NCBI RefSeq assembly: GCF_025399895.1
Contig: NZ_JAODUA010000026.1
Coordinates: 1-64,000, forward strand
Direction: 5' to 3'
From: Streptomyces sp. ASQP_92
GTDB taxonomy: Bacteria > Actinomycetota > Actinomycetes > Streptomycetales > Streptomycetaceae
Length of the DNA: 64,000 nucleotides
Part shown: piece after piece, positions 1 to 6,130 of the stretch
How positions within the stretch are numbered: the first letter of the stretch is position 1
Layout of the letters: each line of letters opens with the position of its first letter
Position numbers and translations under genes: made by a program
The notes under the pieces: generated by a model
What the model was told of the DNA's origin: nothing
What the model saw: only the letters and a program-made list of their open reading frames with translations
The model's database searches: none

Positions 1-178
1 GGGGCTTTGCCCCAGCCCCGCGGGGGGTCCGCCCGCCCACCCACCCGTGCAGCCCGTCGAACCGGCTGAGCCCCTGGGGCTGCGCCCCAGACCCCCTTCG
101 CGCCTTGAGGGCGCTCGTCCTCAAACGCCGGACGGGCTGAGGTGCCCCGCTGCGGGGCGGCACCGACCCTGCCAGGGG
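1..178. repeat. Composite intergenic repeat element, copy 1 (hairpin part)
   Basis: No gene is visible in positions 1-552. This first part holds GC-rich hairpins, for example CTGGGGC-TGC-GCCCCAG at 74-90, followed at about 100-140 by a sequence whose reverse complement recurs near 24598-24640 and 46692-46742 (key words GCGCTCGTCCTCAAACGCCG and GGACGGGCTG). It leads directly into the 56-bp array at 179. The same order of parts is found on the opposite strand at the other two loci. Function unknown; such sequences are familiar as Streptomyces intergenic repeats. Confidence 0.75.
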
Positions 179-420
179 GCGCGGGGAACTGCGCGAGAAG
201 CGGGCACGGTCCGCAGGCGGAGGGGCTTTGAGGGGCGCGGGGAACTGCGCGAAAAGCGCCCCCGTTCCGCAGGGCGAGGGGCTTTGAGGGGCGCGGGGAA
301 CTGCGCGAAAAGCGCCCCCGTTCCGCGGACGAAAGCGGGCTTAGGGGCGCGGGGAACTGCGCGAGTAGTGACCGCGGACCGCAGGCGAAAGCGGGGTTGG
401 GGGGCGCGGGGAACCCCGTG
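179..420. repeat. 56-bp-period tandem array, copy 1
   Basis: The motif GCGCGGGGAACTGCGCGA starts at 179, 235, 291 and 347, and a truncated copy starts at 404, giving spacings of 56, 56, 56 and 57 bp. Sequence between the motifs is also related (for example AGCGCCCCCGTTCCGC in two units), so these are true tandem units and not isolated words. Each motif has GCGC on both sides of GGGGAACT and could form a small hairpin. The array points towards the SDR gene that follows. Confidence 0.85.
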
Positions 421-500
421 GGGGTGATCGGCGGCGGGGTCGCAGGGCGCGAGGGGGGATGGGGGCGAACCCCCAGGGGCGTGGGGGGTTTCGGGGGGCA

Positions 501-516
501 TACCGACCGGTTAGTC
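501..516. promoter_or_regulatory. TetR-type operator upstream of the SDR/ligase/TetR operon
   Basis: TACCGACCGGTTAGTC, 37 bp upstream of the SDR start, has the dyad ACC.ACCGGT..GT. It shares GCATACCGAC with the better palindrome at 6013-6028 (read on the minus strand) at the promoter of the convergent kinase/dehydrogenase operon. The TetR gene at 3112 is the obvious candidate ligand. The assignment is an inference from matching dyads at both promoters. Confidence 0.6.
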
Positions 517-552: not shown

Positions 553-1326
553 ATGAGCACGGGACAGACGGCCGAGGGCACCACCGTGGTGGTCACCGGC
601 GCGGGCGGCGGCATCGGAGCCGCCCTCGCCCGCAGATTCGCGGCGCAGGGCGCCCGGGTCGTCGTCAACGATCTGGACGCGGACAAGGCCCGTACCACCG
701 CCGAGGAGATCGGCGCCATCGCCGTACCGGGCGACGCCTCCACCGTGGTCGGGGCGGCCCGGGACGCCCTGGGCGGGACCATCGACATCTACTGCGCCAA
801 CGCGGGCCTGGGATCGGGGGGTTCGGAGTCCGCGCCCGAGGAGGTGTGGGCCGCCGCCTGGGACGTCAATGTGATGGCCCACGTCCGCGCGGCCCGCGAA
901 CTGCTGCCCCACTGGCTGGAGCGCGGACACGGCCGCTTCGTGTCCACCGTCTCCGCCGCCGGCCTGCTCACCATGATCGGCGCGGCGCCGTACAGCGTCA
1001 CCAAGCACGGCGCGCTGGCCTTCGCCGAATGGCTGTCGCTGACCTACCGGCACCGCGGCATCCGGGTCCACGCCATCTGCCCCCAGGGCGTGCGCACCGA
1101 CATGCTGGCCGACACCGGCACGGCCGGTGACCTCGTGCTCAAGCCGACCGCGATCGAGCCCGACGAGGTCGCCGACGCGCTGTTCGCCGCGATGGCCGAG
1201 GACCGCTTCCTGGTGCTGCCGCACCCCGAGGTCGCGGACTACTCCACCGCCCGCGCCGCCGCCCCGGACCGCTGGCTGACCAGCATGAACCACCTTCAGC
1301 AGAAGTGGGAGGCGAGCGCCGGATGA
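553..1326 (+). CDS. SDR-family oxidoreductase of a 4-hydroxyacid-type catabolic cluster
   Basis: A 257-residue short-chain dehydrogenase/reductase. The N-terminal Rossmann motif TGAGGGIG (about residues 15-22), the NAG-type motif (CANAG) and the catalytic pair Y-x3-K in PYSVTKHG are all present, with the Ser in STVSAAG. ATG 553 is preferred because it follows an AGAGAGG purine run and gives a normal SDR N terminus; the open frame upstream to 397 runs into repeat DNA. The stop codon overlaps the next start as ATGA, so translation is probably coupled to the acyl-CoA ligase. In context it may reduce a 4-oxoacyl-CoA to the 4-hydroxy form (the role of LvaD in levulinate catabolism); substrate is inferred from neighbours only. 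Confidence 0.85.
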   Translation: MSTGQTAEGTTVVVTGAGGGIGAALARRFAAQGARVVVNDLDADKARTTAEEIGAIAVPGDASTVVGAARDALGGTIDIYCANAGLGSGGSESAPEEVWAAAWDVNVMAHVRAARELLPHWLERGHGRFVSTVSAAGLLTMIGAAPYSVTKHGALAFAEWLSLTYRHRGIRVHAICPQGVRTDMLADTGTAGDLVLKPTAIEPDEVADALFAAMAEDRFLVLPHPEVADYSTARAAAPDRWLTSMNHLQQKWEASAG

Positions 1327-2975
1327 GCTCGATCTACGCGACCAGGCCCTGGCTCTCCCAGCTCAGCGCCGCCCAGCGGGCGGACATCGACCCGCCCGCG
1401 ACGGTGCTCGACTCCTTCCGCGCGGCCGTCGCCCGCGCCCCCGAACACACCGCGCTCGCCTACTTCGACGGCCGTCTCGGCTATCGCGAGGTCGACGAGC
1501 TGTCCGATTCCGTCGCCGGTCACCTCGCCGCCCGTGGCCTGGCCCGGGGCGACCGGGTCGCGCTCATGCTCCAGAACAGCCCGCACTTCGTGATCGCCCT
1601 GCTCGGCGCGTGGAAGGCCGGGGCCACCGTGGTGCCGCTCAATCCGATGTACAAGGCGGGCGAGGTCGCACACGTGCTGAACGACGCCGGGGCCGCCGCG
1701 CTGATCTGCTCGGACCGCGCCTGGGAGGGCTATCTGCGCGACACCGCGGCCGGCTCCCCGGTGCGCGTCGCGCTCACCGCCTGCGAGCTCGACTTCCAGA
1801 CCCGCCACGACGAGCGCGTCCTCGGCTTCGAGCGGCTGCCGGTCCCCGCCGACGCCGACGACCTCCTCACCGTCGCCCGGCAGGGGCTCGCCGCGCCCTC
1901 GGGACGTGAACTCTCCGGCGGGGCAACGGCGTTGATCAGTTACACCTCCGGCACCAGCGGAACCCCCAAGGGCGCGATGAACACCCATCGCGGCATCGCC
2001 TACCAGGCGGAACGGCAGCGCACCGGACATCCGATAGCGCGAGGCGCGGGCTACTTCGCGCTCGCGCCGCTCTTCCACATCACCGGCATGGTGTGCGAGC
2101 TGGCGACGTGCATCGCCAACGCGGGCACCCTGGTCCTGACCTACCGCTTCCACCCGGGCGTCGTCCTGGACGCGTTCACCGAGCACCGCCCCGCCTACAC
2201 GGTCGGGCCCTCCACGGCCTTCATGGCGCTCGCGGCGACCCCCGGCGTCACCCCGGACCACTTCGCTTCCTTCGAGCTCATCTCCTCGGGCGGCGCCCCC
2301 CTGCCGCCCGCGCTCGTGGAGAAGTTCCGCGAGGGCTTCGGACCGTACATCCGCAACGGCTACGGCCTGACCGAATGCACCGCCCCCTGCGCCTCGGTGC
2401 CGCCCGAGAAGGAGGCGCCCGTGGATCCGGTCTCCGGCACCCTCTCGGTCGGCGTGCCCGGCCCCGAGACGGTCGTACGGATCGTCGGCCCCGACGGCAA
2501 GGAGGTGCCCTTCGGGGAGCAGGGGGAGATCGTGGTGCGCGGGCCCCAGGTCGTGCCCGGCTACTGGCGCCGGCCCGAAGCCACCGAGGAGGCGTTCCCC
2601 GGCGGCGAACTGCGCACCGGCGACATCGGGTTCATGGACCGCGACGGCTGGCTCTATGTGGTCGACCGGATGAAGGACATGATCAACGCGTCCGGCTTCA
2701 AGGTCTGGCCGCGCGAGGTCGAGGACGTCCTGTACACCCACCCCGCCGTCCGCGAGGCCGCCGTCGTCGGCATCCCGGACGCCTACCGCGGGGAGAGCGT
2801 CAAGGCGTACGTCAGCCTGCGCCCGGGCGCCGAGGCGGGCCCGGCCGAACTCGCCGCGTACTGCAAGGAGCGGCTCGCCGCCTACAAATACCCGCGCGAG
2901 GTGGAGATCCTGGCGGAGCTTCCCAAGACCACGAGTGGGAAGATCCTCAGGCGGGAGCTGCGCACCCAGGCGTAG
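1323..2975 (+). CDS. AMP-forming acyl-CoA ligase (FadD-like)
   Basis: A 550-residue adenylate-forming enzyme that activates a carboxylic acid to its CoA thioester through an acyl-AMP. Visible motifs are the P-loop-like YTSGTSGTPKGA (A3), YGLTECTA (A5), RTGDIG (A7) and the C-terminal catalytic lysine region PKTTSGKILRREL (A10). Length is normal. The start at 1323 overlaps the SDR stop (ATGA), so the two are co-translated. Predicted first step of the cluster: activation of an oxo- or hydroxy-acid for the SDR, the APH-type kinase and the ACAD11-like dehydrogenase. Chain-length preference cannot be read from the sequence. Confidence 0.88.
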   Translation: MSSIYATRPWLSQLSAAQRADIDPPATVLDSFRAAVARAPEHTALAYFDGRLGYREVDELSDSVAGHLAARGLARGDRVALMLQNSPHFVIALLGAWKAGATVVPLNPMYKAGEVAHVLNDAGAAALICSDRAWEGYLRDTAAGSPVRVALTACELDFQTRHDERVLGFERLPVPADADDLLTVARQGLAAPSGRELSGGATALISYTSGTSGTPKGAMNTHRGIAYQAERQRTGHPIARGAGYFALAPLFHITGMVCELATCIANAGTLVLTYRFHPGVVLDAFTEHRPAYTVGPSTAFMALAATPGVTPDHFASFELISSGGAPLPPALVEKFREGFGPYIRNGYGLTECTAPCASVPPEKEAPVDPVSGTLSVGVPGPETVVRIVGPDGKEVPFGEQGEIVVRGPQVVPGYWRRPEATEEAFPGGELRTGDIGFMDRDGWLYVVDRMKDMINASGFKVWPREVEDVLYTHPAVREAAVVGIPDAYRGESVKAYVSLRPGAEAGPAELAAYCKERLAAYKYPREVEILAELPKTTSGKILRRELRTQA

Positions 2976-3064
2976 CACCCCCGGACCCGGCCGGCGGACC
3001 CGCCCGGCACGACCGGTACGGCACGACCAGCACACGCGGCGAGGGGCACGACCCCTCACGCGTG

Positions 3065-3099
3065 TACGAAAGACACGTACGAGAGACACGTACGAGAGA
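3065..3099. repeat. 13-bp direct repeat ahead of the tetR gene
   Basis: Two copies of TACGA(A/G)AGACACG (3065-3077 and 3078-3090) and a partial third (3091-3099) lie immediately upstream of the tetR ribosome binding site. They could be a regulatory site or recent slippage; they do not resemble the TACCGACC palindromes at 501 and 6013. Confidence 0.6.
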
Positions 3100-3111
3100 A
3101 AGGTGGCGGCG

Positions 3112-3708
3112 ATGGCCAAGGCGACGGACACGAGTGACACCACCCCCGTGCCCCAGCGGCTGCTCGCCGCCGCCACCCGCCTGTTCGCGGAGAACGGCTA
3201 CGACCGCACCTCCGTGCAGGAGATCGTCGAGGCGGCGGGCGTCACCAAGGGCGCGCTCTACCACTACTTCGGCTCCAAGGAGGACCTGCTCCAGGAGGTG
3301 TACGCCCGGGTGCTGCGCCTCCAGCAGGAGCGGCTCGACGCGTTCGCCGACGCGGACGAGCCGGTCGAGCGCAGGCTGCGCGAGGCGGCCGCCGACGTGG
3401 TGGTGACCACCATCGACAACCTCGACGACGCGGCGATCTTCTTCCGCTCGATGCACCATCTGAGCCCGGAGAAGAACAAGCAGGTCCGGGCCGAGCGCCG
3501 CCGCTACCACGAGCGTTTCCGGGCGCTCGTCGAAGAGGGCCAGAACGCCGGGGTGTTCTCCACGGCCACCCCGGCCGACCTGGTGGTGGACTACCACTTC
3601 GGTTCGGTCCACCACCTGTCCACCTGGTACCGCCCGGACGGCCCGCTCACCCAGCAGCAGGTCGCCGATCACCTGGCCGACCTGCTGCTGCGCGCTCTTC
3701 GCCCCTGA
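3112..3708 (+). CDS. TetR-family transcriptional regulator of the acyl-CoA cluster
   Basis: A 198-residue TetR protein. The N-terminal helix-turn-helix is clear (LFAENGYDRTSVQEIVEAAG followed by VTKGALYHYFGSKEDLL, residues about 22-60), then an all-helical ligand domain. ATG 3112 follows a GAGAGAAAGG purine run. The gene is 136 bp downstream of the ligase in the same orientation and ends 12 bp before the convergent dehydrogenase. Near-identical palindromes at the promoters of both operons suggest it represses both and is relieved by an acyl-CoA, as for other acyl-CoA-linked TetR proteins; the ligand is inferred. Confidence 0.88.
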   Translation: MAKATDTSDTTPVPQRLLAAATRLFAENGYDRTSVQEIVEAAGVTKGALYHYFGSKEDLLQEVYARVLRLQQERLDAFADADEPVERRLREAAADVVVTTIDNLDDAAIFFRSMHHLSPEKNKQVRAERRRYHERFRALVEEGQNAGVFSTATPADLVVDYHFGSVHHLSTWYRPDGPLTQQQVADHLADLLLRALRP

Positions 3709-3720
3709 ACGGCCCGGCCG

Positions 3721-4935
3721 CTACAGGTACTTCTTCAGCTCGCGGCGGGCCAGCGAGCGCTGGTGCACCTCGTCCGGGCCGTCCGCGAGCCTCAACGTCC
3801 TTGCGGAGGCCCACAGTTCGGCCAGCGGGAAGTCCTGGCTCACGCCGCCCGCGCCGTGCAGCTGGACCGCCTTGTCGATGATGTCGACGACGGTGCGCGG
3901 AGTGGCGATCTTGATGGCCTGGATCTCGGTGTGCGCCCCGCGGTTGCCCACCGTGTCCATCAGCCAGGCCGTCTTCAGGACGAGCAGCCGCACCTGCTCG
4001 ACCGCGACCCGGGCGTCCGCGATCCACTCCTGCACCACGCCCTGCTGAGCGATCGGCTTGCCGAAGGCCGTACGGGCCACGGCCCTGCGGCACATCAGCT
4101 CGATGGCCCGCTCGGCCATCCCGATCAGCCGCATGCAGTGGTGGATCCGGCCCGGCCCCAGGCGGGCCTGCGCGATGGCGAAGCCGCCGCCGGCCTCTCC
4201 GATCAGGTTGCTCGCGGGCACCCGGGCCCCGTGGAAGACGACCTCGGCGTGACCGCCGTGGGAGTGGTCCTCATAGCCGTACACCTGCATGGCGCGGCGG
4301 ATCTCGACGCCCGGGGTGTCGCGCGGGACCAGGATCATCGACTGCTGGCGGCGCACATCGGCGTTGCCGGGGTCGGTCTTGCCCATCACGATGAAGATCG
4401 CGCAGTCCGGGTTCATCGCGCCGGAGATGTACCACTTGCGCCCGGTGATGACGTAGTCGTCGCCGTCCCGCTCGATGCGCGTCTCGATGTTGGTGGCGTC
4501 CGAGGAGGCGACCTCGGGCTCGGTCATCGCGAACGCGGAACGGATCTCACCCGCGAGCAGCGGCTGAAGCCACCGCTTCTTCTGCTCGTCCGTGCCGAAC
4601 TGGGCCAGCACCTCCATGTTGCCGGTGTCCGGGGCCGCGCAGTTGAGGGCGGTGGGCGCCAAGTGCGGGGAGCGGCCGGTGATTTCGGCCAGCGGGGCGT
4701 ACTGGAGGTTGGTGAGGCCCGCGCCGTGCTCCGCGTCGGGCAGGAACAGGTTCCACAGGCCCTGCCGGCGCGCCTCGGCCTTGAGGTCCTCCACCACCTG
4801 GGGGGTGTCCCACGGCGAGGCGAGCTGGGCGCGCTGTTCGTGGGCGGTGACCTCGGCGGGGTGGACGTACTCGTCCATGAAGGCGAGGAGCTTGGCCCGC
4901 AGTTCTTCGGTGCGGGCGTCGTATGCGAAGTCCAT
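3721..4935 (-). CDS. Acyl-CoA dehydrogenase of the ACAD10/ACAD11 type
   Basis: A 404-residue flavin acyl-CoA dehydrogenase. Stretches such as APDTGNMEVL, MTEPEVASSDATNIE, RLGPGRIHHCMR, GVSQDFPLAELW and RLADGPDEVH are, from memory, diagnostic of the dehydrogenase half of human ACAD10/ACAD11 and of bacterial LvaC rather than of ordinary beta-oxidation enzymes. These act on a 4-phosphoacyl-CoA made by the partner kinase, eliminating phosphate to give the enoyl-CoA. The kinase gene (4945-5967) lies directly upstream, 9 bp away, reproducing the domain order of the human fusion. The start ATG at 4935 follows GAAGG. Family assignment is strong; the natural substrate is not known. Confidence 0.88.
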   Translation of the reverse strand: MDFAYDARTEELRAKLLAFMDEYVHPAEVTAHEQRAQLASPWDTPQVVEDLKAEARRQGLWNLFLPDAEHGAGLTNLQYAPLAEITGRSPHLAPTALNCAAPDTGNMEVLAQFGTDEQKKRWLQPLLAGEIRSAFAMTEPEVASSDATNIETRIERDGDDYVITGRKWYISGAMNPDCAIFIVMGKTDPGNADVRRQQSMILVPRDTPGVEIRRAMQVYGYEDHSHGGHAEVVFHGARVPASNLIGEAGGGFAIAQARLGPGRIHHCMRLIGMAERAIELMCRRAVARTAFGKPIAQQGVVQEWIADARVAVEQVRLLVLKTAWLMDTVGNRGAHTEIQAIKIATPRTVVDIIDKAVQLHGAGGVSQDFPLAELWASARTLRLADGPDEVHQRSLARRELKKYL

Positions 4936-4944
4936 GACGGGCTT

Positions 4945-5967
4945 TCAGCCTTCCTGAAGGGTGGTGAGGCCGTGCTCGATGAAGACGGGGACCAGTTCGC
5001 CGATGCGGTCGAACCCGGCGCCCACGGTCTGGCCCAGGGTGTAGCGGTAGTGGATGCCTTCGAGGATCACGGCGAGCTTGAACCACGCGAACGCCGTGTA
5101 CCAGGAGAGGGCGGAGGTGTCGCGGCCCGAGCGGGCCGCATAGCGTTCGATGAGCTCGGCGGGGGAGGGGTGTCCCGCGGCGCCCGCCGTGGTGGAGACC
5201 GGCGAGTGGGGGAGGTCCAGCTTCGCGCTGTACATCACCAGGAGGCCGAGGTCGGTCAACGGGTCGCCCAGAGTGGACATCTCCCAGTCGAGCACCGCCG
5301 TGATCCGGTCGTCGTCGCCGATGAGCACGTTGTCCAGGCGGTAGTCGCCGTGGATGACGGTGGGCGCGGGGGAGGTGGGAAGGGCGCGTCCCAGAGCGGA
5401 GTGCAGCTCGTCGATGCCGGGCAGGTCGCGGTTGCGTGAGGCGTCGAGCTGCTTGCCCCAGCGGCGCAGCTGACGGTCGAGGAAGCCCTCGGGCCGGCCG
5501 AAGTCCCCGAGCCCCACGGCCTGCGGGTCCACCGCGTGCAGCTCGACGAGCGTGTCGACCAGCGCGAGCACGGCCGCCCGGGTCCGCTCGGGGCCGAGCG
5601 GGGCGAGCTGTTCGGCGGTGCGGTAGGGCGTGCCGGCCACGTACTCCATGACGTAGAACGGCGAGCCGAGCACCGACTCGTCCTCGCAGAGCAGCACCGG
5701 CTCCGGCACCGGGACGGCCGTCGGGTGCAGGGCGCTGATGACCCGGTGCTCGCGCCGCATGTCGTGCGCGGTGGCCAGCACATGCCCCAGGGGCGGGCGG
5801 CGCACGACCCACTGACCGGTCCCGTCGGTGACGACGTACGTCAGGTTCGAGCGGCCCCCCTCGATCAGCCGGGCCCTGAGCGGTCCGCTCACAAGCCCGG
5901 GGCGCACGCGGTCGAGGTGGGCCCGCAGCGTCTCCGGGTCGAGGCCTGGCGGGGGGACTGTGCTCAT
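4945..5967 (-). CDS. APH-family phosphotransferase, partner of the ACAD11-type dehydrogenase
   Basis: A 340-residue aminoglycoside-phosphotransferase-fold kinase. The catalytic loop HGDYRLDN and the metal-binding segment LDWEMSTLGDP are intact. In ACAD10/11 and in LvaA this fold phosphorylates the 4-hydroxyl of 4-hydroxyacyl-CoA; adjacency to the matching dehydrogenase makes that role far more likely than antibiotic resistance. ATG 5967 is chosen because GGAGG lies 8 bp upstream; the in-frame GTG at 5976 overlaps that GGAGG. First gene of the minus-strand operon, with the palindrome at 6013-6028 46 bp upstream. No equivalent of the small LvaB subunit is seen in the window. Confidence 0.85.
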   Translation of the reverse strand: MSTVPPPGLDPETLRAHLDRVRPGLVSGPLRARLIEGGRSNLTYVVTDGTGQWVVRRPPLGHVLATAHDMRREHRVISALHPTAVPVPEPVLLCEDESVLGSPFYVMEYVAGTPYRTAEQLAPLGPERTRAAVLALVDTLVELHAVDPQAVGLGDFGRPEGFLDRQLRRWGKQLDASRNRDLPGIDELHSALGRALPTSPAPTVIHGDYRLDNVLIGDDDRITAVLDWEMSTLGDPLTDLGLLVMYSAKLDLPHSPVSTTAGAAGHPSPAELIERYAARSGRDTSALSWYTAFAWFKLAVILEGIHYRYTLGQTVGAGFDRIGELVPVFIEHGLTTLQEG

Positions 5968-6012
5968 CTGCGGCACCTCCGGAACGGGGCGGGCGACTGT
6001 CCGAAGACACGC

Positions 6013-6028
6013 TACCGACCAGTCGGTA
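6013..6028. promoter_or_regulatory. TetR-type operator upstream of the kinase/dehydrogenase operon
   Basis: TACCGACCAGTCGGTA is a 16-bp palindrome with a single non-pairing position at the centre. The minus strand reads GGCATACCGACTGG, matching GGCATACCGACCGG at 497-510. Its place ahead of the second operon of the cluster makes it the best candidate site for the TetR protein encoded at 3112. Similar TACCGACC dyads are known for TetR regulators of fatty-acid genes. Confidence 0.72.
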
Positions 6029-6130
6029 TGCCGTCCAGGGCGGGGTCTGGATTACGGCGTGGCGCGGGCGGCGGGGTGCCGCATCAGGGGCCGGACGCGG
6101 CCGGGCCCGATCGAGACCCGGGCCGCCGGC

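Follow-up and report, generated by a model that had tools for sequence, protein, structure and literature searches.

The breakdown of 4-hydroxyacyl-CoA by a kinase followed by an acyl-CoA dehydrogenase (ACAD) is chemistry already known from ACAD10/ACAD11 and from the Lva (levulinate) enzymes of Pseudomonas, and the mammalian ACAD10/11 reaction was explained only in 2024-2025. In vitro, the two domains of ACAD10 can reportedly be replaced by a bacterial kinase and a bacterial ACAD that are separate proteins, and the kinase of ACAD10 favours R-4-hydroxyacyl-CoA (PMC11342911). The lva genes form a single operon with LvaB and a sigma54-type regulator, LvaR (PMC6692424). Here we analyse a locus of five genes in Streptomyces sp. 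ASQP_92, which encode a short-chain dehydrogenase/reductase (SDR), an acyl-CoA ligase, a TetR-family regulator, an ACAD and a kinase of the aminoglycoside phosphotransferase (APH) fold. The locus lies in the first 64 kb of contig C26 (from C26:1, the contig end; 64,000 nucleotides, hereafter the window) of a genome of 8.13 Mb. With a probability that we put at roughly 0.8 from sequence comparison, the five genes would make up one catabolic regulon for 4-hydroxy and perhaps also 4-oxo or gamma-lactone-derived fatty acids, with the following features:

499 to 515, forward strand: operator A, CATACCGACCGGTTAGT, 37 nt 5′ of the SDR start codon; proposed to control the SDR-ligase-TetR unit.
553 to 1326, forward strand: SDR oxidoreductase P0001, 257 aa, with PF00106 and SDR motifs.
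1323 to 2975, forward strand: acyl-CoA ligase (AMP-binding), 550 aa (PF00501, 288 bits).
3112 to 3708, forward strand: TetR-family regulator P0003 of the TetR_C_24 type (PF00440, PF17932); proposed repressor of both units.
3721 to 4935, reverse strand: ACAD10/11-type acyl-CoA dehydrogenase P0004; proposed to turn 4-phosphoacyl-CoA into 2-enoyl-CoA (from homology, signature residues and tree).
4945 to 5967, reverse strand: APH-fold kinase P0005 (PF01636, 200 bits); proposed 4-hydroxyacyl-CoA kinase.
6014 to 6030, reverse strand: operator B, CATACCGACTGGTCGGT, 46 nt 5′ of the kinase start codon.

All five folds score above their respective Pfam cut-offs, and the genes lie where a first-pass annotation of the window had placed them. 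The start codon of the ligase gene overlaps the stop codon of the SDR gene (1323 against 1326), and the units face each other, with 12 nt between the stop codons of TetR and ACAD, so that the layout had been correctly described as two convergent operons, unlike the single lva operon. The same annotation had called the cluster TetR-bracketed, which does not hold, since the sole TetR gene stands mid-cluster, as the last of the SDR-ligase-TetR unit.

The kinase and dehydrogenase of this locus are bacterial counterparts of the two ACAD11 domains, as had been proposed and as PDB matches, residues and trees agree, so that the locus is best read as a 4-hydroxyacid pathway with a 4-phospho intermediate. 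When P0004 was searched against the PDB with phmmer, the top match was ACAD11 8v3u (460 bits, E 3.7e-137), with 8v3v (458 bits), 4hr3 (455 bits) and the ACAD11 entry 2wbi (450 bits) close behind, against 149 bits for the best ordinary ACAD. We take 8v3u to be the mouse ACAD11 described in PMC12440821, and 4hr3, a putative ACAD, is presumably from M. abscessus. The blocks DTGNMEVL, RLGPGRIHHCMR (residues 258-269) and RLADGPDEVH (382-391), quoted in the first-pass annotation, are all present in P0004, and the distance between the ACAD11 and 4hr3 scores and those of ordinary ACADs argues that they are not there by chance. In mouse ACAD11, R626, H634 and R637 contact the phosphate and are absent from conventional ACADs, R631 is conserved across ACADs and D753 is catalytic (PMC12440821), and P463 of human ACAD11 is described as a helix-breaking proline (PMC11342911). 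The three phosphate contacts, in the helix of RLGPGRIHHCMR, correspond to R258, H266 and R269 of P0004, R631 to R263, the catalytic Asp, which replaces Glu, to D385, and human P463 to P94 (renumbered from the PDB-search alignment). All of these positions are kept in 41 of 41 clusters, the one in the window and those of 40 further loci from the same genus; a strict regular expression for the catalytic block matches 32 of the 41, owing to a variable neighbouring residue.

Compared with 11 other ACADs of the same genome (extracted from 26 further matches), the complete signature set is exclusive to P0004: the general Arg (R263) occurs in all 11, Arg at 269 in one, and the catalytic column holds Glu in seven, P, A, G and G in the other four, and Asp in none. 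In a tree of 48 rows, whose bootstrap had not fully settled and in which several rows have long branches, 37 ACAD11-type proteins including mouse ACAD11 split from these 11 with 100/100 support, so that the phylogenetic check suggested by the first-pass annotation did not place the dehydrogenase among ordinary ACADs. By all these comparisons, P0004 is an ACAD11-type dehydrogenase. The signature residues are also intact in the ACADs of 20 loci from other actinobacteria (L138-L157), except for one (L141) with Lys for the last Arg. Six loci (L128, L130, L131, L132, L137 and L211) carry an ACAD11-type subgroup with Tyr replacing the phosphate-contact His, and most of these ACADs have as neighbours a second ACAD and a divergent kinase that shares 30-33% identity with P0005.

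The kinase gives a similar picture. The structures matched by P0005 are 9o56 (244 bits), 3dxp (188 bits) and the ACAD11 kinase domain (179 bits), whose D220 and N225 correspond to D208 and N213, and the DWE motif is kept, with D227. The HGD motif with its Asn occurs in 41/41 clusters and the stricter DWE.STLGDPL in 40/41. NCBIfam aminoglycoside models reach 36.6 bits against a cut-off of 205. The absence of an LvaB homologue, also part of the first-pass annotation, is borne out provided that LvaB is DUF6285 (PF19802), a family with 0 matches in the whole host genome. DUF6285 is present in 18 of 149 sampled genomes of the phylum (17 above the cut-off), with none in the four same-genus genomes of that sample among the matches listed. 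All 20 DUF6285 loci (18 distinct places, two of them counted twice) adjoin an APH gene 25-34% identical to P0005. In a 74-kinase tree, built by a quick method without bootstrap and without P. putida LvaA, the 18 DUF6285-adjacent kinases form one group (SH-aLRT support 99), and P0005 and the ACAD11 kinase stand outside it; the other 56 rows had mostly been collected through searches with P0005 or with the ACAD beside it, a selection that biases toward such a split. The missing LvaB thus fits the branch of P0005, the more so as the P. citronellolis lva cluster also lacks lvaB (PMC6692424). In a Sulfitobacter plasmid, a 157-aa protein with no Pfam match (L210, 3897-4370) lies between a divergent kinase and a ligase, in an LvaB-like position.

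The kinase-dehydrogenase pair occurs in most of the Streptomyces genomes examined. The dehydrogenase (E <=1e-100) was found in 115 of 121 genomes (the host and 120 of the same genus), and one genome (G079) has solely a 60% identical copy. In the 40 main-copy loci the APH and ACAD genes are always adjacent and TetR is always present, in convergent orientation in 39 (L114 is rearranged), and an SDR of >=68% identity accompanies them in 38, the exceptions being L114 and L100, whose stretch ends inside the ligase. Extra DNA separates the two halves in 16 of 40 loci (distance between the TetR and ACAD starts above 2.5 kb), and the halves still stay together. In the two loci whose intervening DNA was inspected, it holds large reading frames of 1476 aa (L085, 10479-14909) and of 1305 and 615 aa (L100, 1801-7728). 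The nearest named relative among the matches listed is Streptomyces sp. CB01201, with a kinase 94% and a TetR 95% identical.

The link between both halves would be a common operator, a palindrome first recognised by reading the DNA upstream of both units in the window. Its pattern, ACCGACNNGTCGGT, defined from the window alone, was searched with <=2 mismatches in 260 nt upstream plus 30 nt of each gene. It precedes the kinase in 41/41 clusters and the SDR in all 39 where that gene was found, and was found upstream of neither TetR (0/41) nor the ligase (0/30 usable stretches, L100 excluded). The refined 17-mer CATACCGACYRGTYRGY occurs exactly twice in the 8.13-Mb genome, both times at the cluster, where 0.02 occurrences are expected from base composition. 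Of the 115 genomes of the genus that have the dehydrogenase, 114 contain exact sites, and of the six that lack it none does (Fisher 1.8e-9, a value that ignores kinship), and a reversed control pattern gave 5 matches over the 121 genomes. Beyond the genus, an exact site stands directly in front of TetR in two loci of Microbispora (TetR identity 69-71%), which also have a site with 1 mismatch ahead of the kinase. Two 1-mismatch sites occur on a contig of Nonomuraea, whose TetR is 70% identical, and no site with <=2 mismatches was found in Amycolatopsis loci. A plasmid cassette of S. cathayae (L248, 6915-10779) keeps an exact site before the kinase and a 1-mismatch site before the SDR. In that cassette TetR is broken, the ligase is a 21-aa remnant, IS3-family transposase genes are nearby, and F420 reductase and LLM genes follow within ~5 kb. 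Among solved structures, P0003 is nearest to 3vpr, presumably the PaaR of T. thermophilus.

In the pathway that we propose, a ligase, whether that of the cluster or a different one of the same cell, would form the acyl-CoA, whose 4-hydroxyl would be phosphorylated by the APH-fold kinase. The ACAD11-type dehydrogenase, assisted by FAD, would remove the phosphate to give a 2-enoyl-CoA for beta-oxidation, and the SDR may either interconvert 4-oxo- and 4-hydroxyacyl-CoA or oxidise the 3-hydroxyacyl-CoA downstream. The TetR protein would bind the palindrome before both promoters and be released by an intermediate, probably an acyl-CoA.

Several observations weigh against this proposal. The reactions of the Streptomyces enzymes are predicted by homology to ACAD10/11, and binding of the operator by TetR is deduced from their co-inheritance. 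No operator (<=2 mismatches) was found at L118, with an ACAD 72% and a TetR 56% identical, nor in the Winogradskya, Virgisporangium, Prauserella, Nocardioides and Aeromicrobium loci that share the SDR. A 1-mismatch palindrome lies beside another TetR-like gene in the host genome, and PaaR of B. cenocepacia, itself of the TetR family, uses the near-identical palindrome ACCGACCGGTCGGTT (PMC9493321). Finally, in 45 of 80 listed named ACAD loci the available DNA, in some cases short contigs, gave no kinase match (tblastn, E <=1e-8), and 19 of the 20 loci L138-L157 have no kinase match within ~9 kb, which indicates that the ACAD is not always accompanied by this kinase. The similar palindromes of L160 (C19:20883-20902 of the host) and of L199 adjoin, by eye, another TetR-like gene, so that probably several TetR proteins make use of the motif.

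The step of the SDR is the part of this pathway that has the strongest competitor. P0001 has intact Tyr/Lys and Gly-rich motifs, and the Asp after its beta-2 strand suggests an NAD(H)-type enzyme. Its best solved relative by sequence, 2et6 (114 bits), is named (3R)-hydroxyacyl-CoA dehydrogenase, and both LvaC and ACAD10 yield some 3-hydroxyacyl-CoA as well (PMC11342911). A role as a downstream (3R)-hydroxyacyl-CoA dehydrogenase, instead of a 4-oxo/4-hydroxyacyl-CoA dehydrogenase, falls only a little short of even odds. Against it, SDR substrates are poorly predicted by sequence similarity, and the predicted model is too weak for use (mean predicted local distance difference test score, pLDDT, of 67.7). 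The subfamily of P0001 recurs beside the kinase-ACAD pair in Tsukamurella (55% identity), Deinococcus (46%) and a second Streptomyces copy (45-48%, three compared). Among the matches listed (80 named loci) the subfamily also lies near the ACAD in at least 7 non-Streptomyces loci, those of Aeromicrobium, Winogradskya, a Pirellulales metagenome-assembled genome (MAG), Prauserella, Virgisporangium, an actinomycete MAG and Nocardioides, and the seven SDRs, each compared with three queries from the subfamily, reach 48-61% identity with the best one.

The same comparison bears on the possibility that the cluster is a true levulinate pathway as in P. putida, with the ligase as LvaE, the SDR as LvaD, the kinase as LvaA and the ACAD as LvaC. 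The same four enzyme types do stand side by side here, and the P. citronellolis cluster also does without lvaB, while an lvaE mutant of P. putida still grows on levulinate (PMC6692424). However, the host genome has no DUF6285, the regulator is a TetR and not a sigma54-type LvaR, and P0001 is just 25-28% identical to the SDRs of the Azoarcus and Caballeronia clusters (25-26% for Azoarcus), which consist of histidine phosphatase, kinase, SDR and ACAD and match the gene complement of P. citronellolis lva. These SDRs, like that of a Burkholderia cluster (75% identical to the Azoarcus one), serve as proxies for LvaD. Moreover, the ligase is full-length in 26 of the 40 same-genus loci, partial in 4 (one of them, L100, cut by the end of the fetched stretch) and absent in 10, and the local ligase is dispensable within the genus. 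A true lva pathway is accordingly unlikely. The P. putida lva genes were not among the matches listed for the 80 named ACAD loci. From the catabolic role given in the first-pass annotation, the 4-hydroxyacid pathway with a 4-phospho intermediate stands through its ACAD11 homology, whereas the label 'levulinate-type' does not, in view of LvaB, TetR, layout, SDR and ligase. Levulinate as the specific substrate was set aside as unproven.

A further idea, that the cluster serves the turnover or synthesis of gamma-butyrolactone-type signals of Streptomyces, arises from a plasmid of Streptomyces sp. NBC_00388 (L209, L243), where a 73% identical ACAD and its kinase have an AfsA-related gene at a distance of ~5 kb, genes of the ScbA and ScbR types at ~14 kb, and a ketoacyl-ACP synthase III (KAS III) gene in the same region. 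That copy is different and more distant, the operator (<=2 mismatches) was not found there, and none of the five genes of the window is AfsA-type by Pfam, which makes a signalling role for the window cluster more doubtful still. A biosynthetic use of the pair on the NBC_00388 plasmid itself is possible.

That the regulator is PaaR, and the cluster one for phenylacetate catabolism, we consider very improbable. The sites of the window differ from the PaaR palindrome, ACCGACCGGTCGGT, by 2 and 1 of 14 bases, but the exact 17-mers of the genome lie solely at the two sites of the cluster, and Pfam assigns no phenylacetate function to any of its five genes. The identity was rejected on these target sites, in a comparison from which the promoters of the host paa genes, not located, were absent. 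The likeness of both palindromes has a different use: B. cenocepacia PaaR is released by the CoA ester of its own pathway (PMC9493321), which suggests an acyl-CoA effector for the Streptomyces TetR as well. Least credible of all is the chance pairing of an ordinary fatty-acid ACAD with an antibiotic-type APH, both superfamilies being large, against which stand the signature residues, the tree, the ACAD11 matches and the low aminoglycoside scores; an antibiotic-resistance APH was rejected on the ACAD11 matches and is refuted as far as sequence allows.

In part of the genus, the proposed 4-hydroxyacid regulon may have further members. Twelve additional exact sites were examined among the matches listed: nine lie upstream of an LLM-class oxidoreductase gene, one precedes the kinase itself on another contig and two are elsewhere. 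The LLM protein of one genome (G032) matches the F420-dependent model TIGR03619 with 224 bits against a cut-off of 167, and in 8 of the 9 loci the LLM gene has a neighbour of 861-871 aa. This neighbour is presumably an FO synthase. With a site defined as <=2 mismatches within 200 nt upstream, 28 of 90 LLM genes had one, but these divide unevenly, with 24 in a first set of 31 (the 30 most query-like and that of the own genome) and 4 among the other 59. Mononucleotide shuffles gave 0/620 for the first set and 0.2% of 1180 for the rest. This drop indicates that membership is lineage-restricted at most, and the F420 LLM gene was ruled out as a general member of the regulon; the LLM gene of the host has a borderline site, with 2 mismatches, 20 nt before the start.

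The second Streptomyces copy, with an ACAD 59-62% identical, comprises ten loci by our assignment (L119-L127 and L129), and five of them (L120-L124) have the operator without mismatch. Its surroundings in L121 include a HAD protein, a ligase, SDR, ACAD, kinase, a second ligase and a thioesterase, as well as a thiolase recognised by eye. The separate HAD protein (L121, 2749-3396; L123, 2585-3232, the latter by eye) matches in L121 the epoxide-hydrolase-N-like model TIGR02247 with 93 bits, under its cut-off of 125. Together with the ACAD11-type ACAD and the kinase, it suggests that the three domain types of ACAD10 exist as three genes in this copy. Near the contig end, window positions 176-414 contain direct repeats with a spacing of 56-57 nt around GGGGCGCGGGGAACTGCGCGA, a possible cause of the assembly break.

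Among listed titles and the open-licence PMC literature, we found no report of an ACAD10/11-like or 4-hydroxy acid pathway in Streptomyces, and no prior description of the regulon, its operator or the SDR partner. What would be new here is the regulon, the shared operator and the SDR partner. With the dehydrogenase in 115 of 121 genomes and a defined probable operator, it offers a tractable genetic system, in which an inducer assay would expose the natural substrate and which may yield a sensor for 4-hydroxy acids. The split of the kinases into two branches also gives a hint as to why LvaB is needed in certain bacterial clusters only. As a tentative and rather doubtful extension, a genus-wide TetR regulon could sense a 4-hydroxyacyl-type CoA ester and couple the kinase and dehydrogenase to a dedicated SDR. 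In the part of the genus with the F420-dependent LLM oxidoreductase beside a probable FO synthase gene, it might open a branch for the breakdown of 4-hydroxy fatty acids (possibly of 4-hydroxyalkenals or gamma-lactones) that is linked to F420 and differs from the routes of mammals and Pseudomonas.

Compared with known systems, there is a close likeness to mammalian ACAD11 (and ACAD10), since the cluster kinase and ACAD are homologous to both domains and keep their published active-site residues, and kinase followed by ACAD on 4-hydroxyacyl-CoA would be the chemistry expected here. The difference is that the two activities are separate proteins, in operons with an SDR, a ligase and a TetR, and that no HAD domain occurs in the cluster. 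The lva cluster of P. citronellolis LA18T likewise joins kinase, ACAD, SDR and acyl-CoA ligase (PMC6692424), whereas the Streptomyces locus is split into two convergent units and has TetR in place of LvaR, an SDR of another subfamily by the proxy comparison and a dispensable ligase; LvaB is missing from it, as it is from P. citronellolis. With the PaaR regulators it shares the palindromic operator (B. cenocepacia) and the closest solved structure (presumably T. thermophilus), while the targets are here genes of the 4-hydroxyacid type. The plasmid clusters of Tsukamurella, Deinococcus, Rhodococcus and Azoarcus differ in gene order and in carrying extra beta-oxidation genes, and the operator was not found (<=2 mismatches) in three of these plasmid loci (L207, L208 and L211), Azoarcus being outside the scan. 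They nevertheless bring together a kinase, an ACAD11-type ACAD and SDRs, those of Tsukamurella and Deinococcus including the very SDR subfamily of the window.

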